DNA of 38,244 nucleotides from a virus: IMG/VR virus record IMGVR_UViG_3300031251_000062, positions 1 through 38,244 of that record, one strand, 5' to 3'. The position numbers and the translations under genes were made by a program. The notes beneath the pieces are model-generated. The model saw only the letters and a list, made by a program, of their open reading frames with translations. It was not told the DNA's origin and made no database searches. Shown one piece after another: positions 1,301-38,145 of the stretch (position 1 is its first letter; each line of letters begins with the position of its first letter).

Positions 1301-1516
1301 ATGCAATTAATTGAAATAAAAAAGAACATGGATTCGGGAGACGCATCATTTTTGGCGAAGACTACCGGATACAGCGTGGAGATGGTAAGAAAAGTTTTGA
1401 ATGGGGAACGCAATAATGATTTGATTGTACAAGCAGCAGAATTATTTGTAAAGAATAAAAAAAGTTTATCGGAACAAATAGCATTGATGTGTGGAGAGGA
1501 GGACGAAGCTTTATGA
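1301..1516 (+). CDS. Ner/Cro-like small DNA-binding regulator
   Basis: This 71-residue protein contains a predicted helix-turn-helix around residues 17-40 (FLAKTTGYSVEMVRKVLNG), the shape of a Cro- or Ner-type regulator. It is the first gene after the early promoter and diverges from the repressor gene, which is where Mu places ner. It ends in TTATGA, overlapping the transposase start codon by 2 bp, so the two are probably translationally coupled. The likely role is to shut down early and repressor transcription by binding the dyads at 1238-1274. Assignment rests on size, fold pattern and position rather than on a strong family match. Confidence 0.65.
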   Translation: MQLIEIKKNMDSGDASFLAKTTGYSVEMVRKVLNGERNNDLIVQAAELFVKNKKSLSEQIALMCGEEDEAL

Positions 1517-3618
1517 TTACTCCATACGAAACGCACAATAATCAAATAGGTGTAAGACTAAGTTTCTTAGTTGCTGATGAATCAATCAAACATCCGAATA
1601 GCCTCAGTGTAATTAGTTATACAAATTACAATAGAACATGCTCATCAGATCGTAAACCCGAACTCCGTTTAAAGGAAGGAAAAGGAAAAGGTAATGAAGC
1701 TTTATTAAGTTGGAAACATTTACCGGAAGAATGGAAGTATGCTTTAAAAACAACTTTCGGTGATCCAGTTGTGGAGCATAATCCAATGGAGGAGTATTTT
1801 GAGATGGATGAGAAGGCTCGTTCATATTATGATGGATATACTTGTGGTGATGGTGGACACTTAACTCCTCAACAAATTAGCGCAGCTACCATTAATGCAA
1901 GTGTACTGCAAGCATTTTTGAAATTGAAACATAACCGTGAGGTGACTCACAAACGACTCGGAAATAGCAGTCGAGGATTATGGCCAGGACTATTGAATGA
2001 TCTGAACGGTTTTAAAAACATTTTAAAAGTAAAATACGAAGGTATTACTCATACACTTCCTGAAAGTGAACGTAGAATACGCGAGGATTTGAAAGGTTGG
2101 AAGAAATTGAGTTATGAATATTATGTTGATGGAAGATCTCGCAACCAAAATGCGAAAAAAGTTGTTACCGAAAAACATTTGGCGATGCTTGAAGCATTAC
2201 TTACCAAGCATAATAATTTTGATAACGAACAAATTTCCAACTTCTACAATATAGCTGCTGTAGCACTTGGTTGGAAAACAATAGATGCAAGCACAGTAGC
2301 AAACTACCGCAACAAACTTGGTTTATTTATTACTTCAGGAAATAGCGGAGAAACAAATTTCAATAATACAAAAGGCATGCAGGTTAGACGTTCGCGCTCA
2401 ACTATTGCAACAGGATTTTGGACATTAGATGGTTGGGATGTAGAGTTATTTTTCCAACGCAAAGAAACTAATAAAAAAGGACACCAAATTATCACTTACT
2501 CTAACCGATTAACTGTAGTTGTAGTGCTTGATACAGTTAACGGAATAAGATATCCAATAGGATATGCCATAGGAACTCATGAAACACCTGAATTGATTGC
2601 ACAAGCATTGCGTAATGCTGCAAATCACACAAAAGAGTTATTTGGAGATAGATATAAACCGCATCAATTACAAAGTGATCATTATGCGATTGCAACTCTC
2701 ACACCAATTTACGAAGCTATGAGCGAACATTTTACACCTGCTCGCGTGAAAAATTCGAAGGCAAAAATTATCGAACCCTATTTTAAACACCTAAATAAAA
2801 TCTGTCAAACTAATTTTAAAAATTGGAGCGGATTTGGTGTAACCATGCGCAAAGAAAATCAGCCGAACGAAGATTATTTGAATAAAATACGTCACTCGTT
2901 CCCCGATGAACAAGGTTGCCGTGAGCAGATAGTAAGATTGATGGAAATGGAACGATCTGCAAAGATTGACAGATACATGGAACGATGGAATGCACTCCCT
3001 GAATCTGACAGATTATTACTTTCAACAGAAGAGTATCTTCAACTGTTCGGAACAGTCCACTCGCATACAAATAAATTGAAAGGTGATGGATTTACACCGA
3101 CACTATTTGGAGAAAGAAGAGTGTATGATTCATACGATCAAAAATTCAGAGAGTTGGGATATATGGATTGGGCCGTGAAATATGATCCTTCAGATTTAAG
3201 CACAGTATTAGTTGTAAATGCTGAAAGTGATGCCAATAGTAAACTTAAAAAAGTTATCGGAACTCATCGTTTCTTATTAATAGAAAAAGACATTCAACCT
3301 GAAGCATTATATGATAGACAAGATGGTGATGCTGCTAAACTTCAAAAAGTATTTGGATTTAATAAACAATTGAAAGCATCGGTGATGGATAGGATGGCGA
3401 ATACTCAAAATATTTTAGAAGAAGTGTTTGCCGATGCACCTCAGTTGAATAATTCACTTACCAAAATGGTTTTATGCGATTCGAACGGACAGCATAAAGA
3501 CCAACGTAATTCACAGAGATCACTCAAAAATAAAACAATAGAGTTACCTGAAGCAGGCGTATCCAATACACCCCAACAGGAAGACATAATTGAAGATGAT
3601 ATCAGAAATAATTACTAA
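1513..3618 (+). CDS. Mu-type DDE transposase (MuA homologue)
   Basis: This 701-residue protein is the DDE transposase that would bind the phage ends and carry out strand transfer. Candidate catalytic residues are D306 (TLDGWD, compare MuA GDGY), D389 (LQSDHY) and E421 (KIIEPYF). The N-terminal third should bind DNA and the C-terminal tail is polar (LPEAGVSNTPQQED). I chose ATG 1513 because it overlaps the preceding TGA and follows a GGAGAGGAGGA ribosome-binding stretch at 1493-1503; an upstream in-frame ATG at 1489 would extend it by eight residues. The length is close to the 663 residues of MuA. The next gene is the MuB-type ATPase, the usual partner. Confidence 0.93.
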   Translation: MITPYETHNNQIGVRLSFLVADESIKHPNSLSVISYTNYNRTCSSDRKPELRLKEGKGKGNEALLSWKHLPEEWKYALKTTFGDPVVEHNPMEEYFEMDEKARSYYDGYTCGDGGHLTPQQISAATINASVLQAFLKLKHNREVTHKRLGNSSRGLWPGLLNDLNGFKNILKVKYEGITHTLPESERRIREDLKGWKKLSYEYYVDGRSRNQNAKKVVTEKHLAMLEALLTKHNNFDNEQISNFYNIAAVALGWKTIDASTVANYRNKLGLFITSGNSGETNFNNTKGMQVRRSRSTIATGFWTLDGWDVELFFQRKETNKKGHQIITYSNRLTVVVVLDTVNGIRYPIGYAIGTHETPELIAQALRNAANHTKELFGDRYKPHQLQSDHYAIATLTPIYEAMSEHFTPARVKNSKAKIIEPYFKHLNKICQTNFKNWSGFGVTMRKENQPNEDYLNKIRHSFPDEQGCREQIVRLMEMERSAKIDRYMERWNALPESDRLLLSTEEYLQLFGTVHSHTNKLKGDGFTPTLFGERRVYDSYDQKFRELGYMDWAVKYDPSDLSTVLVVNAESDANSKLKKVIGTHRFLLIEKDIQPEALYDRQDGDAAKLQKVFGFNKQLKASVMDRMANTQNILEEVFADAPQLNNSLTKMVLCDSNGQHKDQRNSQRSLKNKTIELPEAGVSNTPQQEDIIEDDIRNNY

Positions 3619-3639: not shown

Positions 3640-4593
3640 ATGAACAGGAACGGACTAATTAAACACATTGAACTTCACAAAAGCAAACTTGGAAGTTTAA
3701 CAAAAGTAGCTGACCGCTGCAAAATTAATGTTGGTGCATTATCAACCATAATGGCAGGAAAATACGGAGCTGATGAATCAGCAATGCTTCAAAAAATTGC
3801 CAAAGCATTAGAATACAGAGAGAGTGACTGGCAGATAATTCGTACAACCGGAAATTATAAAACAGTTGAACGTGTTTTCAGAGATGCGAAAAGCGAAAGT
3901 ATGTGGTTTACCATCAGCAATAAAGCAGGAAGTGGCAAGACAGAAGCGATGCAGGATTTATACAACAGAGATACTACAGGAACTGTAATATTTATTCAAG
4001 CTGAAGAATGGAGCGGACGACAATTTATGTTGAAGTTGATTGAAAAAACACTCGGAACATCTGAAGGAGGAACGGCTTACAATACAACAGGAAAAGGTTA
4101 CAAATCACTTTCGCAATTGATGGATATAGTTGCCAACTACTTTAACGATATGAGTTTGGAACGTCCGATACTGATCATTGATGAAGCTGATAAATTGAAA
4201 GCTCCTGCACTTAGAACTCTCATTCCATTATTCAATAGAACTGAAGATCGTTTAGGTGTGATTTTGTCCGGGACTGAAAATTTGGAGAAGGAAATCAAAA
4301 ATAATGTTCGATTGAATAAAAAAGGCTATGACGAATTGGAAAGCCGATTTGGTAGAACCTACATCCACCTTAAAGGTGCAAGCGAAAAAGATGTGACAGA
4401 AATATGCAAGGTGAATGGAATAACAGTACCTGAAGTGATCACACAAATTTGGATTGAAATGGAAAAAGTTAGCAAACTCACAACCTTTAAATCAGGAACA
4501 GGAACAAAAGATGGAATGGTTGCTTATGTGGAAGATTTTAGAAGACTAAAACGCTTAATCAAACGCGAACTCTTAATGAAGAGGGCTGCGTAA
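3640..4593 (+). CDS. MuB-type AAA+ ATPase, transposition target protein
   Basis: This 317-residue protein has an N-terminal helix-turn-helix (about residues 16-40, SLTKVADRCKINVGALSTIM) and an AAA+ domain. Walker A is A96-GSGKT (97-101) and Walker B is ILIID181E182. The order HTH then AAA is that of MuB, which binds target DNA, stimulates the transposase and confers target immunity. The size matches MuB (312 residues). It follows the transposase and is followed without a gap by a second ATPase gene: TAA 4591-4593, then ATG 4594. Confidence 0.9.
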   Translation: MNRNGLIKHIELHKSKLGSLTKVADRCKINVGALSTIMAGKYGADESAMLQKIAKALEYRESDWQIIRTTGNYKTVERVFRDAKSESMWFTISNKAGSGKTEAMQDLYNRDTTGTVIFIQAEEWSGRQFMLKLIEKTLGTSEGGTAYNTTGKGYKSLSQLMDIVANYFNDMSLERPILIIDEADKLKAPALRTLIPLFNRTEDRLGVILSGTENLEKEIKNNVRLNKKGYDELESRFGRTYIHLKGASEKDVTEICKVNGITVPEVITQIWIEMEKVSKLTTFKSGTGTKDGMVAYVEDFRRLKRLIKRELLMKRAA

Positions 4594-7452: not shown

Positions 7453-7935
7453 ATGGAAACACTATCAATCGAAAAGAAAAATGCACAGAATGCATTTAAA
7501 AAAGCAAACAAAGAAGTGAAAGCTTTGCTTGTTGAGTTATTTGGAGAAAAGACTTTCTCTGAGAAAATTACTGACCGGGTAAAAACCTTTGAGGATGCAT
7601 GGGAACTTGTAGAAGTATCAAGTAACCAAGATATACTTCTTAAATACAATGGTCAGGATGGAGATATGATTGCAGCACAGGCATATTTAAAACTTAGCAT
7701 CATTGCAAAAGCATTAAATGAAGGATGGAAACCTGACTGGACTAATTCATCAGAATACAAATACTATCCGTATTTCAATATGTCATCGGGCTTCGGTCTG
7801 TCGTGTGACGGTTACGATGATCCGGACTCGTATTCGGTTATCGGCTCTCGCCTTGTTTTTAAAACAGCAGAATTAGCCAAGTATGCCGGAACTCAATTTG
7901 AAGCTATTTACAAAGACTTATTTATCATCAACTAA
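7453..7935 (+). CDS. DGR variable protein 1
   Basis: This 160-residue protein is a target of the retroelement. The N-terminal 70 residues are helical and charged. Residues 80-110 (LSIIAKALNEGWKPDW, EYKYYPYF) are shared with the next gene. Residues 112-134 are the variable region, flanked by SGFGLS and GSRL. A conserved tail follows (FKTAELAKYAGTQFEAIYKD). The variable residues are C118, D119, G120, D123, P124, D125, Y127, S128 and V129 relative to the template. No signal peptide or membrane segment is seen, so it is probably cytosolic or virion-internal. The variable stretch ends about 26 residues before the C-terminus, unlike typical C-terminal C-type-lectin targets. The ligand is unknown. 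Confidence 0.9.
   Translation: METLSIEKKNAQNAFKKANKEVKALLVELFGEKTFSEKITDRVKTFEDAWELVEVSSNQDILLKYNGQDGDMIAAQAYLKLSIIAKALNEGWKPDWTNSSEYKYYPYFNMSSGFGLSCDGYDDPDSYSVIGSRLVFKTAELAKYAGTQFEAIYKDLFIIN
7786..7854 (+). repeat. DGR variable repeat 1 (VR1)
   Basis: The repeat aligns without gaps to the template at 8361-8429. Of 69 positions, 15 differ, and all 15 fall on template adenines (15 of 22 A); the 47 non-A positions are identical. Replacements include G, T and C. This is the signature of adenine-specific mutagenic retrohoming. Confidence 0.95.
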
Positions 7936-7945
7936 TTAAAAAAAC

Positions 7946-8326
7946 ATGGACAAAATTAAAACATTTGAAGAAGCATGTGCAGCACTTGGTATTAGTACTG
8001 CATTGCCTGAAGTAAGTATGTTACCTGAAGCTGAACAAAAAGCAATTGTAGCACATTACAAACTTACAGTTATCGCAAAAGCATTGAATGAAGGTTGGAA
8101 ACCCGACTGGAGCAATGATGATGAATATAAATATTACCCTTGGTTTGATGTGGAAGAAGATGCTGCAAAACCATCGGGCTTCGGTCTGTCGTATGGCGGT
8201 TACGTTGGTACGGACTTGTATACGTTTATCGGCTCTCGCCTTTGTTTCAAATCGAGAGAGTTGGCAAAATATGCAGGTGAGCAATTTACTGATCTGTACG
8301 AAGAGTATTTCCTAATTAATAAATAA
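7946..8326 (+). CDS. DGR variable protein 2
   Basis: This 126-residue paralogue of the preceding gene lies 10 bp downstream. Both share a KTFE start motif, the block VIAKALNEGWKPDWS, EYKYYPWFD, the variable region (residues 77-101) and the tail FKSRELAKYAGEQFTDLYEEYFLI. It lacks about 35 N-terminal residues present in protein 1. Compared with protein 1, the variable residues here read Y83, G84, G85, V87, G88, T89, D90, L91, Y92, T93 and F94. There is no secretion signal. The two proteins may form hetero-oligomers or alternative versions of one binder. Proteins with this conserved frame recur in Bacteroidota phages, by my recollection rather than by search. Confidence 0.9.
   Translation: MDKIKTFEEACAALGISTALPEVSMLPEAEQKAIVAHYKLTVIAKALNEGWKPDWSNDDEYKYYPWFDVEEDAAKPSGFGLSYGGYVGTDLYTFIGSRLCFKSRELAKYAGEQFTDLYEEYFLINK
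8174..8242 (+). repeat. DGR variable repeat 2 (VR2)
   Basis: Aligned to the template, 15 of 22 adenines are changed. Only one of the 47 non-adenine positions differs (template C8404, here T8217). Similarity continues about 6 bp further (to 8248), again with changes mainly at A. VR1 and VR2 differ from each other at many of the same adenines, so both have been rewritten separately. Confidence 0.95.
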
Positions 8327-8360
8327 GAAAATGGGTTGTGCGTGGAGAGCGTTTGGTTTA

Positions 8361-8434
8361 TCAGGCTTCAGTCTGTCGTATAACGATTACGATAATACGA
8401 ACTCGAATACGAATATCAGCTCTCGACTAAGTTA
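8361..8434 (+). repeat. DGR template repeat (TR)
   Basis: This is the adenine-rich source copy for VR1 and VR2. In the register of the targets it reads S-G-F-S-L-S-Y-N-D-Y-D-N-T-N-S-N-T-N-I-S-S-R-L, with the AAC/AAT codons typical of DGR templates because mutating their A bases can reach many amino acids. It lies between the second target and the reverse transcriptase. The transcript from about 8331 to 8535 would serve as template RNA. It also sits in a 34-codon frame (ATG 8331 to TAA 8433-8435) that is probably not a functional gene. Confidence 0.93.
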
Positions 8435-8435
8435 A

Positions 8436-8535
8436 GATTTTACCCACGTAGACCTTGCCATCAGTTGCAAAAAATTACGAATAAAAAAGCGGGCTTTAGT
8501 ATCGAAAGAGAACGAGACCAATTAAAAACAAAGGA
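8436..8535 (+). ncRNA. Probable 3' part of the DGR template RNA
   Basis: This 100-base non-coding spacer lies between the template repeat and the reverse transcriptase start. In the Bordetella phage DGR the sequence downstream of TR is required to prime cDNA synthesis, so this spacer is the likely equivalent. I see no gene and no strong hairpin in it. No promoter of its own is obvious; it may be carried on the early operon transcript. Confidence 0.5.
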
Positions 8536-9495
8536 ATGAAAAGAATAAATAATCTGTACGCATCAATAATAAGCATTGAGAACTTGCAGCTTGCTGATGA
8601 GATGGCGAGAAAAGGCAAATTGATGCAGTATGGAGTTATCCTTCACGATAAGAACCGGGAACAGAATATATTGAAGCTGCACGAAATGCTGTTGAATAAA
8701 ACATATACAACTTCAACTTATACAACCTTTAAAATATACGAACCAAAGGAAAGGATCATTTACAGATTACCTTACTTTCCTGATAGGATCACTCATCATG
8801 CAGTGATGAATATTTTAGAGCCAATATTCGTTTCAACATTTACCAACGATACTTATTCATGCATTAAAGGCAAAGGTATTCATGCAGCATTGCGAGGTGT
8901 AAAAGCAGCATTGAAAGACACAACAGGTACAACTTATTGCCTGAAATTGGACATTAAGAAATTTTATCCTTCAGTTGATCACGAAGTTTTAAAACAGATC
9001 CTACGCAGAAAATTTAAAGATACTGATTTATTGTGGCTGCTTGATGAAATTATTGACAGTACTGAAGGACTTCCGATTGGTAATTACCTCAGTCAATATT
9101 TTGCAAACTTCTACCTCACATACTTCGACCATTGGTTAAAAGAAACATTGCGTGTGAAGTATTATTTCCGCTATGCTGATGATATTGTTATCCTTTCGGA
9201 TAATAAACCATACCTGCACGAATTACTTGCTAAAATACGTGAGTATTTGGATGTGCAATTGAAGCTAACAGTAAAACATAATTATCAAATCTTCCCGGTG
9301 CAAGCTCGTGGAATTGATTTTGTGGGATACGTATTTTTTCATACACATATCATGCTTCGAAAAAGCATTAAACAAAACTTTTGCAAGATGATTGCCAGGA
9401 ATAAAAATAAGCAATCAATCGCATCATATAATGGATGGGCAAAGCATTGTAATTCTAAACATCTACTCAAAAAAATATTACATGAAAAAATTTAG
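8536..9495 (+). CDS. DGR reverse transcriptase
   Basis: This 319-residue protein would copy the template RNA into cDNA with errors opposite adenine. Motifs seen: LKLDIKKFYPSVDH with catalytic D139; G178-LPIGNYLSQ-187, whose I/LGNxxSQ form is diagnostic of DGR enzymes (group II introns and retrons have QGxxxSP); YADD at 213-216 with the other two catalytic Asp; and GIDFVGY (259-265). There is no maturase or endonuclease domain, and the length is typical for DGR enzymes. It lies about 100 bp after the template repeat. Its end overlaps the next gene by 14 bp. Confidence 0.96.
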   Translation: MKRINNLYASIISIENLQLADEMARKGKLMQYGVILHDKNREQNILKLHEMLLNKTYTTSTYTTFKIYEPKERIIYRLPYFPDRITHHAVMNILEPIFVSTFTNDTYSCIKGKGIHAALRGVKAALKDTTGTTYCLKLDIKKFYPSVDHEVLKQILRRKFKDTDLLWLLDEIIDSTEGLPIGNYLSQYFANFYLTYFDHWLKETLRVKYYFRYADDIVILSDNKPYLHELLAKIREYLDVQLKLTVKHNYQIFPVQARGIDFVGYVFFHTHIMLRKSIKQNFCKMIARNKNKQSIASYNGWAKHCNSKHLLKKILHEKI

Positions 9496-16244: not shown

Positions 16245-17528
16245 TTAATTAAAGTATTTTTCAATTAACTGTGCAGCTCTACCACTTTCAATCTCTTTAC
16301 GGCTTACCGTTAAAGATTTTTTACCTTTAAATTTTATCATCACATTTTTAATTTGTTTCTTTTTATCAAAGGATACTGCATCGTAAATTCCTTTTGATAA
16401 TTGATGTGATTCGATTGGTTTTTCAATAAATAATACAATGTTTTCAGCTTGTGATTTTGCTCTCCGAATGGCTCCCTGAACAGCTTTTGCAGGACTTGTA
16501 AAATTGCTTAATGTTTTAAACTCCCATTCTCCCTTCAGATGAAATTCAGCATCAGCTGATTTACCACCAACATCTTCCAAAAGTTTTATACCAAAACCTT
16601 CTTTGGACAATTCCTGTCCAATAATCATATTCTGTTTTAATTCATCAGGGCCATGTTTGATATGTTCGGCTGTAAAGCCTCCTGAATCTTTATTGAATTC
16701 AACATTTGTAAACTCTTTATCTTTCAATAAAACTTCTGATTCTTTGAAATTTTCCCATCGCCCTGGTGAGAGGATTCCGATTTCTGACATTACTGTTTTT
16801 GCATCGTTACCGGGAATAGAAAAATATGGAGCAGTATCAGGAAATACTTCTCCGTTTTCGCCAACATTATTATCAAACATATCAGGTACTTCAGGAAGTG
16901 ATTTAGCTTCTACCAAATCTCCTGTAGTTGGTTCAACTGTACATAAACATCCATAGTGATTTAAAGGGTAGTAAGTATCCCAAAATGGATCATCAACAGG
17001 ATAAACGCTTCCATCCAGTTCGGAACAGATATCGCAAGTTGTATCTCCTTCAACTGATACATATTCGAGGTTTGGAAAATCTTCCTTTTCAGATTTTATT
17101 TCTTGCCAATATTCAGCCATTTTAGACTGACGAAGAGCAGTATGATATTCGGTTTGTAAATAATTTTTATTGTAGGTATTATCAATGGCTCTTACTGCTT
17201 CTTCAAATTTATGATATGGAATAATGCCTTCTTTACTTTCATTCATTATTAGATGAGAAAACTCTCGAAGTTCCTGATATGATTTTGCACCTGAAAAAGC
17301 GTGTACATTATTTTCTATTCGTGATAGGATTTGATAATCGCCACTCTTTGGATCAAGGTCTTTAAATGTTTTACCATAACCCTGAAAAACACCACGCATT
17401 AATTCCTGTGCCATCAAACGAGTTTGTTCTCTATCAATGCCACCGGGTTTGATATTGCCTTTATAAATTAGTCGGGCAACCTTGTTGGTTTCTGATGATA
17501 TAACGGATGTAGGGATTTTCTTTGCCAT
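16245..17528 (-). CDS. MuF minor head protein fused to CdiA-CT-like nuclease domain
   Basis: This is a 427-residue two-part protein. Residues about 1-200 are a Mu F/SPP1 gp7 head-morphogenesis domain with the typical end VEGDTTCDICSELDG, then PLNHYGCLCTV (C165, C168, C194, C196). After a Pro/Asp linker (about 200-275), residues 280-427 resemble the CdiA C-terminal nuclease domain: GGFTAEHIKHGPDELKQN, then D326 (SADAEF), E336-x-K338 (WEFK) as a PD-(D/E)xK-type set, and QAENIVLFIEKP. MuF proteins carrying polymorphic toxin domains are known in temperate phages. The toxin could be packaged with the head and delivered to a cell. No small immunity-type gene follows; the next gene is the tape-measure protein after 113 bp. 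Confidence 0.82.
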   Translation of the reverse strand: MAKKIPTSVISSETNKVARLIYKGNIKPGGIDREQTRLMAQELMRGVFQGYGKTFKDLDPKSGDYQILSRIENNVHAFSGAKSYQELREFSHLIMNESKEGIIPYHKFEEAVRAIDNTYNKNYLQTEYHTALRQSKMAEYWQEIKSEKEDFPNLEYVSVEGDTTCDICSELDGSVYPVDDPFWDTYYPLNHYGCLCTVEPTTGDLVEAKSLPEVPDMFDNNVGENGEVFPDTAPYFSIPGNDAKTVMSEIGILSPGRWENFKESEVLLKDKEFTNVEFNKDSGGFTAEHIKHGPDELKQNMIIGQELSKEGFGIKLLEDVGGKSADAEFHLKGEWEFKTLSNFTSPAKAVQGAIRRAKSQAENIVLFIEKPIESHQLSKGIYDAVSFDKKKQIKNVMIKFKGKKSLTVSRKEIESGRAAQLIEKYFN

Positions 17529-37338: not shown

Positions 37339-38145
37339 ATGAAAGAAAGAAAAGTAAAACAACAAATGAAAACACCGATTACCTACTACGGAGGCAAGCA
37401 AACAATGCTTAAACATATTTTGCCTTTAGTACCCAAACACACACTTTATACTGAAGCTTTTGCAGGAGGTGCAGCATTATTCTTCGCAAAGGAACGTGCA
37501 ACAGTTGAAGTAATCAATGATATGAATGGTGAAATCGTTAATTTTTATGAAACGGTAGTGACAAAGTTTGATGAATTGAAAGCTCGTATCGAAAAGTTAT
37601 TGCATAGCAGAATGGCTCATCAACACTCATGGTATATTTATAATCATCCACAATGGTTTACTAAGGTTGAACGTGCATGGGCTTTATTTACACTTAGCAA
37701 AATGGGCTTTGCGGGACAGTTGAGTAATTCGTTTGGATTTGATAAATCTGAATGCCGTCATCCAAAGAAGATATATTACTCGAAGGATGCGTTTAATTTA
37801 TCTTTAAAAGAACGATTAGAATGCGCTACAATTGAACATGATGATGCTATGAAGGTAATTGCTCGTTATGATACTCCTGAAGCGTTTCACTTCATTGACC
37901 CTCCTTATGTGGGTAGTAATATGGGACATTATGCTAATATGTTCAACGATCAGTCGCTTGATGAGTTATTGGTGCTTTGTACTAAACTGAAAGGAAAGTT
38001 TATGCTTACGATGTATCCGAATGCTGCCATTGAAGCTGTGGCTAAGAAGAACAAATGGACTATTCATCGCGTATCTCGCCAAATTAGTGCGTGTAAAGCT
38101 GAATCAAGACGTAAGCAGGAAGAATGGATGGTGACGAATTATTAA
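37339..38145 (+). CDS. D12-class DNA adenine methyltransferase (Dam-like)
   Basis: This 268-residue protein has the SAM-binding motif ITYYGGK (14-20), the segment YTEAFAGGAALFFAKE, and the catalytic DPPY (187-190, context FIDPPYVGSN), diagnostic of D12 class N6-adenine methylases. There is no restriction partner nearby. As the last gene at the right end it takes the position of Mu mom, suggesting it protects phage DNA from host restriction. A second ATG at 37366 (residue 10) would remove a basic N-terminus and is a possible alternative start. Confidence 0.88.
   Translation: MKERKVKQQMKTPITYYGGKQTMLKHILPLVPKHTLYTEAFAGGAALFFAKERATVEVINDMNGEIVNFYETVVTKFDELKARIEKLLHSRMAHQHSWYIYNHPQWFTKVERAWALFTLSKMGFAGQLSNSFGFDKSECRHPKKIYYSKDAFNLSLKERLECATIEHDDAMKVIARYDTPEAFHFIDPPYVGSNMGHYANMFNDQSLDELLVLCTKLKGKFMLTMYPNAAIEAVAKKNKWTIHRVSRQISACKAESRRKQEEWMVTNY

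Follow-up and report, generated by a model that had tools for sequence, protein, structure and literature searches.

A diversity-generating retroelement with two small targets and a candidate OB-fold helper gene in a Mu-like phage of Bacteroidota

Organization of the cassette and its phage setting

The window, by which we mean the whole stretch of 38,244 nucleotides that was analysed, a complete IMG/VR-type virus record, carries a cassette in which two small target genes (T1 and T2), each with a variable repeat (VR1 and VR2), are followed by a template repeat (TR), a spacer, the gene for a reverse transcriptase (RT) and a short gene that we call ACC (Table 1). A first-pass annotation had described a diversity-generating retroelement (DGR) with two tandem targets in a Mu-like phage, and the gene content agrees, with MuA- and MuB-type genes, a Mu portal, a Mu F protein and a DGR-type RT all found; tape measure, tail sheath and baseplate genes are also present. 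The extent given there for the cassette, 7453-9495, was too short, as ACC, a conserved gene that belongs to the cassette, was missing from it. Elsewhere in the window, the C-terminal domain of the Mu F-like head protein resembles a CdiA domain and is possibly a toxin-like module, and a DNA methyltransferase is encoded near the right end.

Table 1. Coordinates of the cassette, its neighbours in the window and the RT-ACC fusions of relatives
Feature	Position	Strand	Remarks
Mu-type transposase A	1489..3618	+	PHROG 310, E 8.5e-33; upstream of cassette
Transposition ATPase B	3640..4593	+	PHROG 296, E 7e-39; upstream of cassette
Target 1 (T1), 160 aa	7453..7935	+	PHROG 11581, function unknown, E 4e-32
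VR1	7786..7854	+	hypermutated zone ~7801-7838
Target 2 (T2), 126 aa	7946..8326	+	PHROG 11581, E 3e-34
VR2	8174..8248	+	hypermutated zone ~8189-8226
Template repeat (TR)	8361..8435	+	apparently non-coding; fixed, IMH*-like divergence from both VRs at the 3' end
Structured spacer RNA, TR to RT	8436..8535	+	helices from alignment
Spacer helix 1	8456-8458 with 8467-8469
Spacer helix 2	8490-8496 with 8514-8520
Spacer helix 3	8502-8503 with 8508-8509
DGR reverse transcriptase (RT), 319 aa	8536..9495	+	IGNYLSQ, YADD
Candidate accessory gene (ACC), 100 aa	9482..9784	+	predicted OB fold; overlaps RT stop by 14 nt
Mu F-like head protein	16245..17528	-	C-terminal domain resembling CdiA C-terminal domain (PF18451, E 2e-8)
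DNA methyltransferase	37339..38145	+	PHROG 56, E 8e-61
RT-ACC fusion protein	L010:5758-7212
RT-ACC fusion protein	L137:9773-11242
RT-ACC fusion protein	L178:9971-11284
RT-ACC fusion protein	L188:10001-11263
RT-ACC fusion protein	L214:10882-12252

The RT contains the two motifs first reported for it, IGNxxSQ (here IGNYLSQ) and YADD, and matches RVT_1 (E 3e-19) and PHROG 1423, 'reverse transcriptase' (E 2.5e-126). Its best solved relative is 8ub7 (E 1.6e-45), which we take to be the DGR RT of Bordetella phage BPP-1. The spacer upstream of the RT gene has a structure that is visible in the alignment only. Across 63 sequences, 95.8% of cells were paired compared with 35-46% when the alignment was slid, compensatory changes were present in 10 of the 11 pairs, and cells changed on both sides numbered 160, versus 40 in shuffles and 10-39 in slid alignments. 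The window's own spacer, read from the alignment, keeps 10 of the 11 pairs. Folding of TR plus spacer as a single sequence was no better than shuffles (z 0.78), and an Rfam search of the spacer region returned no match. Translation of TR was considered as well: a 34-aa frame crosses it in the window, but an in-frame ATG occurs in only 28 of 79 loci and stops are scattered, so the frame is not conserved and this candidate was rejected.

The window is from a virus of Bacteroidota bacteria. A scan of viral contigs with the RT yielded 478 relatives, of which 80 were kept, and a scan with the targets yielded 29; the RT scan of a genome collection yielded 198, of which 80 were again kept. By title, the kept genome-collection relatives are nearly all Bacteroidota (Chitinophagaceae, Flavobacteriia, Pedobacter, Sphingobacterium, Dyadobacter and Bacteroidales), and the cassette was found in well over a hundred phage or prophage loci. 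Niastella caeni and Dyadobacter sp. Leaf189 are examples of hosts that carry a related prophage. Loci with nearer RTs mostly have the order T1-T2-TR-RT; about 10 viral loci have three VR-bearing targets, and in a few loci an extra target lies several kilobases off. Bacteroidales loci with more distant RTs have one large target and a longer TR. Judged by context, 33 of 132 loci are Mu-like, and the recurrent neighbours of the others are terminase, head protease, methyltransferase and DnaB. The Mu-like relatives carry the transposase, B and an ATPase gene upstream at similar distances (roughly -6.2 kb for the transposase and -4.6 kb for B, relative to the RT and in the A/B order of the window); their head genes are encoded on the opposite strand, from +4 to +10 kb. 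No second copy of the window's phage was recovered by searching viral contigs for the exact TR, and a search of plasmids gave no match. Target-like genes without an adjoining DGR RT were seen in six loci; in L019 the RT is far away, and the records of L004, L015, L017, L027 and L031, which may be incomplete, contain no DGR RT.

Differences between template and target repeats

Realignment bore out the gapless match of TR positions 8361-8429 to VR1 and to VR2 (8174-8242), together with the difference counts reported for them. Within this length of 69 nt, 15 positions separate VR1 from TR, every one of them at a TR A (p = 3e-10 with 22 A in 69 nt, hypergeometric), and 16 separate VR2 from TR, comprising 15 at a TR A and one C-to-T change. 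Thus 30 of 31 differences over 2 x 69 nt are at A, and 1 of 94 non-A positions is changed in the two VRs together. The homology is extendable to ~8435, and over the resulting 75 nt each VR has 18/19 differences at A. Neither strand of the window contains a third TR-like stretch. The statement that the VRs differ at several of the same adenines held only in part. Seven TR-A sites differ between the VRs within the 69 nt, but both VRs are changed, to different bases, at only one of these seven, and at 11 sites of the 69 nt the two carry the same change. In the hypermutated zone of the window, which has 16 TR A, VR1 and VR2 are identical at 9 and share a base at 6 of the 7 doubly changed sites. 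This VR1/VR2 pair is one of the more alike among 88.

The borders of the hypermutated zone were set from position-by-position counts in 154 targets, anchored at the G of a G-S-R-L motif (position 0). Within the zone, from about -43 to -5, a TR A faces all four bases and non-A sites almost never change; outside it, a TR A faces one fixed base. At -55 (a third codon position) VR carries G in 53 of 55 targets and at -48 in 90 of 92, while at position 0 TR has A in 140 targets and VR has G in 139 of these. At +7 a TR A faces G in 136 of 136, and at +11 (again a third codon position) it faces T in 108 of 113. The corresponding marks in the window are TR 8363, 8370, 8418, 8426 and 8429. All 15 differences per VR had previously been read as the outcome of mutagenesis; the A-specificity stands, but by the 154-target counts the fixed marks were included in that number. 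Of the 15 differences in each VR, about five are such marks, which most relatives share and several of which are at synonymous third positions; the ~10 changes per VR inside the zone can be attributed to mutagenesis. Since selection on the protein does not readily explain marks at third codon positions, we regard the fixed marks as standing differences between template and target. By analogy with the IMH/IMH* pair of BPP-1, the fixed difference at the 3' end would work as an IMH.

In 163 targets of relatives, each compared with a TR that had been derived from a different target, mismatches total 2626, and 2348 of them (89%) fall at a TR A, with A making up 27% of TR. An earlier total, 2885 of 2958, was discarded, since 80% of mismatches at A had been a condition of the scan behind it. 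The VR base at a TR A in the 163 targets was G in 1330 cases, A in 1129, T in 660 and C in 333. By codon position, the TR A of relatives number 1588 (first), 1628 (second) and 236 (third).

Near-identical phages were compared directly, disregarding misalignment at contig ends. Five of them (L038, L040, L041, L042 and L044) have 37 differing sites in three VRs, 35 of these at TR A, and very few differences in the rest of the cassette they share; the member that varies is a different one for each VR. Likewise, L099, L100 and L101 differ nearly only at TR-A sites of VRs, and L100 departs from L099 at nine TR-A sites and a 3-base indel of one VR and at one site elsewhere. As the variation among near-identical relatives is almost confined to TR A inside VRs, and each VR varies independently, we conclude that such cassettes are active. 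The activity was seen in the relatives, and the window's own copy is presumably active as well. The independent variation of VR1, VR2 and VR3 also upholds the earlier proposal that both targets were diversified separately. T1 and T2 agree at 37.8% of TR-A sites within a genome and at 33.3% between genomes (sd 1.4), and because the within-genome value is only slightly higher, T1 and T2 vary almost independently.

Three individual loci deserve mention. The 3-base indel that separates L099 (4184-4248) from L100 lies inside a VR, suggesting that VR length can change by a codon. In L005 (5376-5592), TR apparently has few adenines left in its variable zone, and a VR paired to it by A-specific differences was not detected, although the RT frame is open; this template was possibly overwritten by its own cassette. 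In L018 (4989-5358) a frame change within the VR interrupts the second target; it may reflect an error of homing or of sequencing.

The target pair and the accessory gene

T1 is built from an N-terminal extension of ~40 aa, a helical region, the VR and ~26 aa C-terminal of it. The extension sets T1 apart from T2 and was not found in other proteins of the collected loci. In relatives the VR ends ~20-28 residues before the C-terminus of the target; VRs at the C-terminus are usual in DGR targets, according to PMC8144416. A Pfam search of the targets gave no match, and no signal peptide was found in T1 or T2. The AlphaFold2 model of T2 (pLDDT 82.6 overall, low in the VR) has two N-terminal helices, a low-confidence VR hairpin and two C-terminal helices. 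The fold had no significant match in the PDB, and among viral models it matched uncharacterised phage proteins only. We take the T1 and T2 products to be hypervariable binding proteins.

What they bind is where readings diverge. The targets could be virion proteins for receptor binding or adhesion, as in other phage DGRs, that are merely encoded outside the tail module, and we give this reading a little less than an even chance. In a profile comparison (hhalign probability 94%, 29 columns), the T2 VR core resembles the C-terminal VR of the large fibre-like targets that the same RT family serves, the homologue in phage Versailles is annotated 'tail protein', and viral targets of three DGR clades are mostly tail proteins according to Roux et al. 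2021 (PMC8144416). The resemblance is limited to the VR core, so that otherwise different proteins may have the variable hairpin in common; the large fibre-like targets themselves had no Pfam match. Given this similarity a C-type lectin fold may hold the VR, although T2 had no PDB match and its model is of low confidence there. T1 and T2 are only 126-160 aa, have no recognised fibre domain, and a hydrophobic N-terminus is present in just 7 of 159 targets. Gene order places them in the early region of Mu-like phages, apart from the tail genes, a position that suggests early expression. Homologues in Versailles, LoVEphage and the crAss-like phage cr60_1 sit among replication, methyltransferase and other non-structural or unknown genes, and the same pair occurs in Mu-like and non-Mu phages. 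On account of the early-region position and the presence in unlike phages, receptor binding seems slightly less likely than a non-tail role directed at some host or rival factor that varies.

ACC was detected in 104 of 132 two-target loci by clustering and in 123 of 132 by profile, nine being without a detected copy, and it is present in 21 of 22 single-target loci. Its model (AlphaFold2, pLDDT 90.2) is a small barrel with the strand order beta-beta-beta-alpha-beta-beta, which fits a predicted OB fold, a five-stranded barrel with a helix between strands 3 and 4. The structures aligned to it by VIA-align are largely OB folds (RuvBL2 domain II, PriB, SSB, RPA and POT1) at modest Z scores of 4.3-6.5. 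Foldseek gave no significant match for the model, and the sequence had no match in Pfam or among solved structures.

A general phage single-strand-binding protein that stands beside the RT by chance would also have an OB fold, and phages often encode such proteins. This explanation is unlikely in view of the linkage to the RT. In five records (L010, L137, L178, L188 and phage BT-TP2) ACC is fused to the RT C-terminus, and an RT adjoins ACC in all 18 loci newly fetched with ACC alone. Most loci have a short overlap between ACC and the RT stop (mostly a few to ~22 nt), ACC a few times stands before TR in single-target loci, and it accompanies both target classes. Among 296 Bacteroidota genomes there were three strong ACC matches, all adjoining or fused to a DGR RT of this group. 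In the archaeal-host virus vir525, ACC lies beside the RT and next to a tail-protein gene.

A search for Avd (bAvd, PF22296), which a very diverged Avd could escape, found none in the window and none in 44 viral records, but did give matches in three host genomes. We propose that ACC may bind nucleic acid and replace Avd. DGR accessory genes were reportedly sorted by Wu et al. in 2018 (NAR) into several classes beyond avd and HRDC. ACC is apparently an undescribed candidate helper protein. PMC10053308 names Avd, HRDC and MSL as DGR accessory proteins.

Proposed mechanism and comparison with other systems

The RT motifs, the A-restricted TR/VR differences, the placement of A at codon positions 1 and 2, the fixed 3' difference and the structured RNA 3' of TR were all found, and the locus is almost certainly a DGR whose two diversified targets are small phage proteins paralogous to each other. 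This confidence applies to the DGR and its mode of diversification, and not to the role of the targets. In the mechanism we propose, TR and the structured spacer would be transcribed, and the RT, aided by the OB-fold protein instead of Avd, would bind the spacer and copy TR with errors opposite A. The cDNA would then replace the central part of VR1 or VR2 (~39 nt, 13 codons), stopping before the conserved G-S-R-L. The fixed differences at both ends would keep TR and VR distinct, so that transfer probably runs one way, from TR to VR.

Loss of activity with retention of the pattern, which would make the window's DGR a relic, is very unlikely. Many changes are common to VR1 and VR2, and VR2 has its single C-to-T, as a relic might; yet the RT is open with intact motifs, ACC is open, the spacer pairing is kept and the non-A positions are otherwise unchanged. 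Recent duplication of one target as the source of the two VRs can be dismissed with still greater confidence, since T1 and T2, at ~48-53% identity, are hardly ever nearest neighbours from the same genome in a tree of 46 T1 and 46 T2 built with the VR left out, where the T1 class clusters apart from T2 with 6 label changes versus 30.9 in shuffles. That tree has few columns and its single forks are weak; as a whole it indicates that T1 and T2 are an ancient conserved pair.

More tentatively, and with a greater chance of being wrong than right, we suggest a phage DGR branch in Bacteroidota in which an OB-fold protein, in some cases joined to the RT as a fusion, takes the place of Avd, and which hypermutates a conserved pair of small, early, non-virion proteins, so that directed hypermutation would serve intracellular conflict as well as host attachment. 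Phage DGRs are mostly seen as diversifiers of tail fibres and the model system is Avd-dependent; the present cassette departs on both counts. DGRs as such were already known, and what seems new is the candidate helper linked or fused to the RT and the conserved small target pair outside the tail module. If the suggestion is true, there would be a second, compact route to adenine mutagenesis, and hypermutation of proteins acting inside the cell would become testable.

The BPP-1 DGR (mtd, avd, TR, brt) and the window cassette share the RT family, A-specific transfer from TR to VR, a TR between target and RT, and fixed 3' TR/VR differences comparable to IMH/IMH*. BPP-1 has one tail fibre target, whereas the window cassette has two small targets, a short TR (~70 nt), a ~100-nt spacer, VRs away from the C-terminus, and an OB-fold candidate helper after the RT with Avd undetected (BPP-1 details in part from PMC6642488 and PMC8867640). 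The single-target DGRs of Bacteroidales prophages (for example L159 and L164) have RTs 55-67% identical, ACC nearly always present and a VR ending in GSRL; they differ in their one large target (mostly 430-575 aa), a VR at the extreme C-terminus and a TR of 112-125 nt.

DGRs with several VRs are represented by the DiGReF set (PMC3521204), the tentaclin phages (PMC10743442) and the Bacuni phages (PMC8143477), which, in the accessible parts of these papers, likewise have more than one target per RT and parallel diversification. The tentaclin and Bacuni targets are described there as C-type-lectin or adhesin-like, and the Bacuni phages as carrying Avd. The same parts of the three papers do not describe a conserved tandem target pair in an early region. 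Finally, the Hankyphage is, from the abstracts of PMC6199706 and PMC12135933, also a transposable phage of Bacteroidota (Bacteroides) that carries a DGR.
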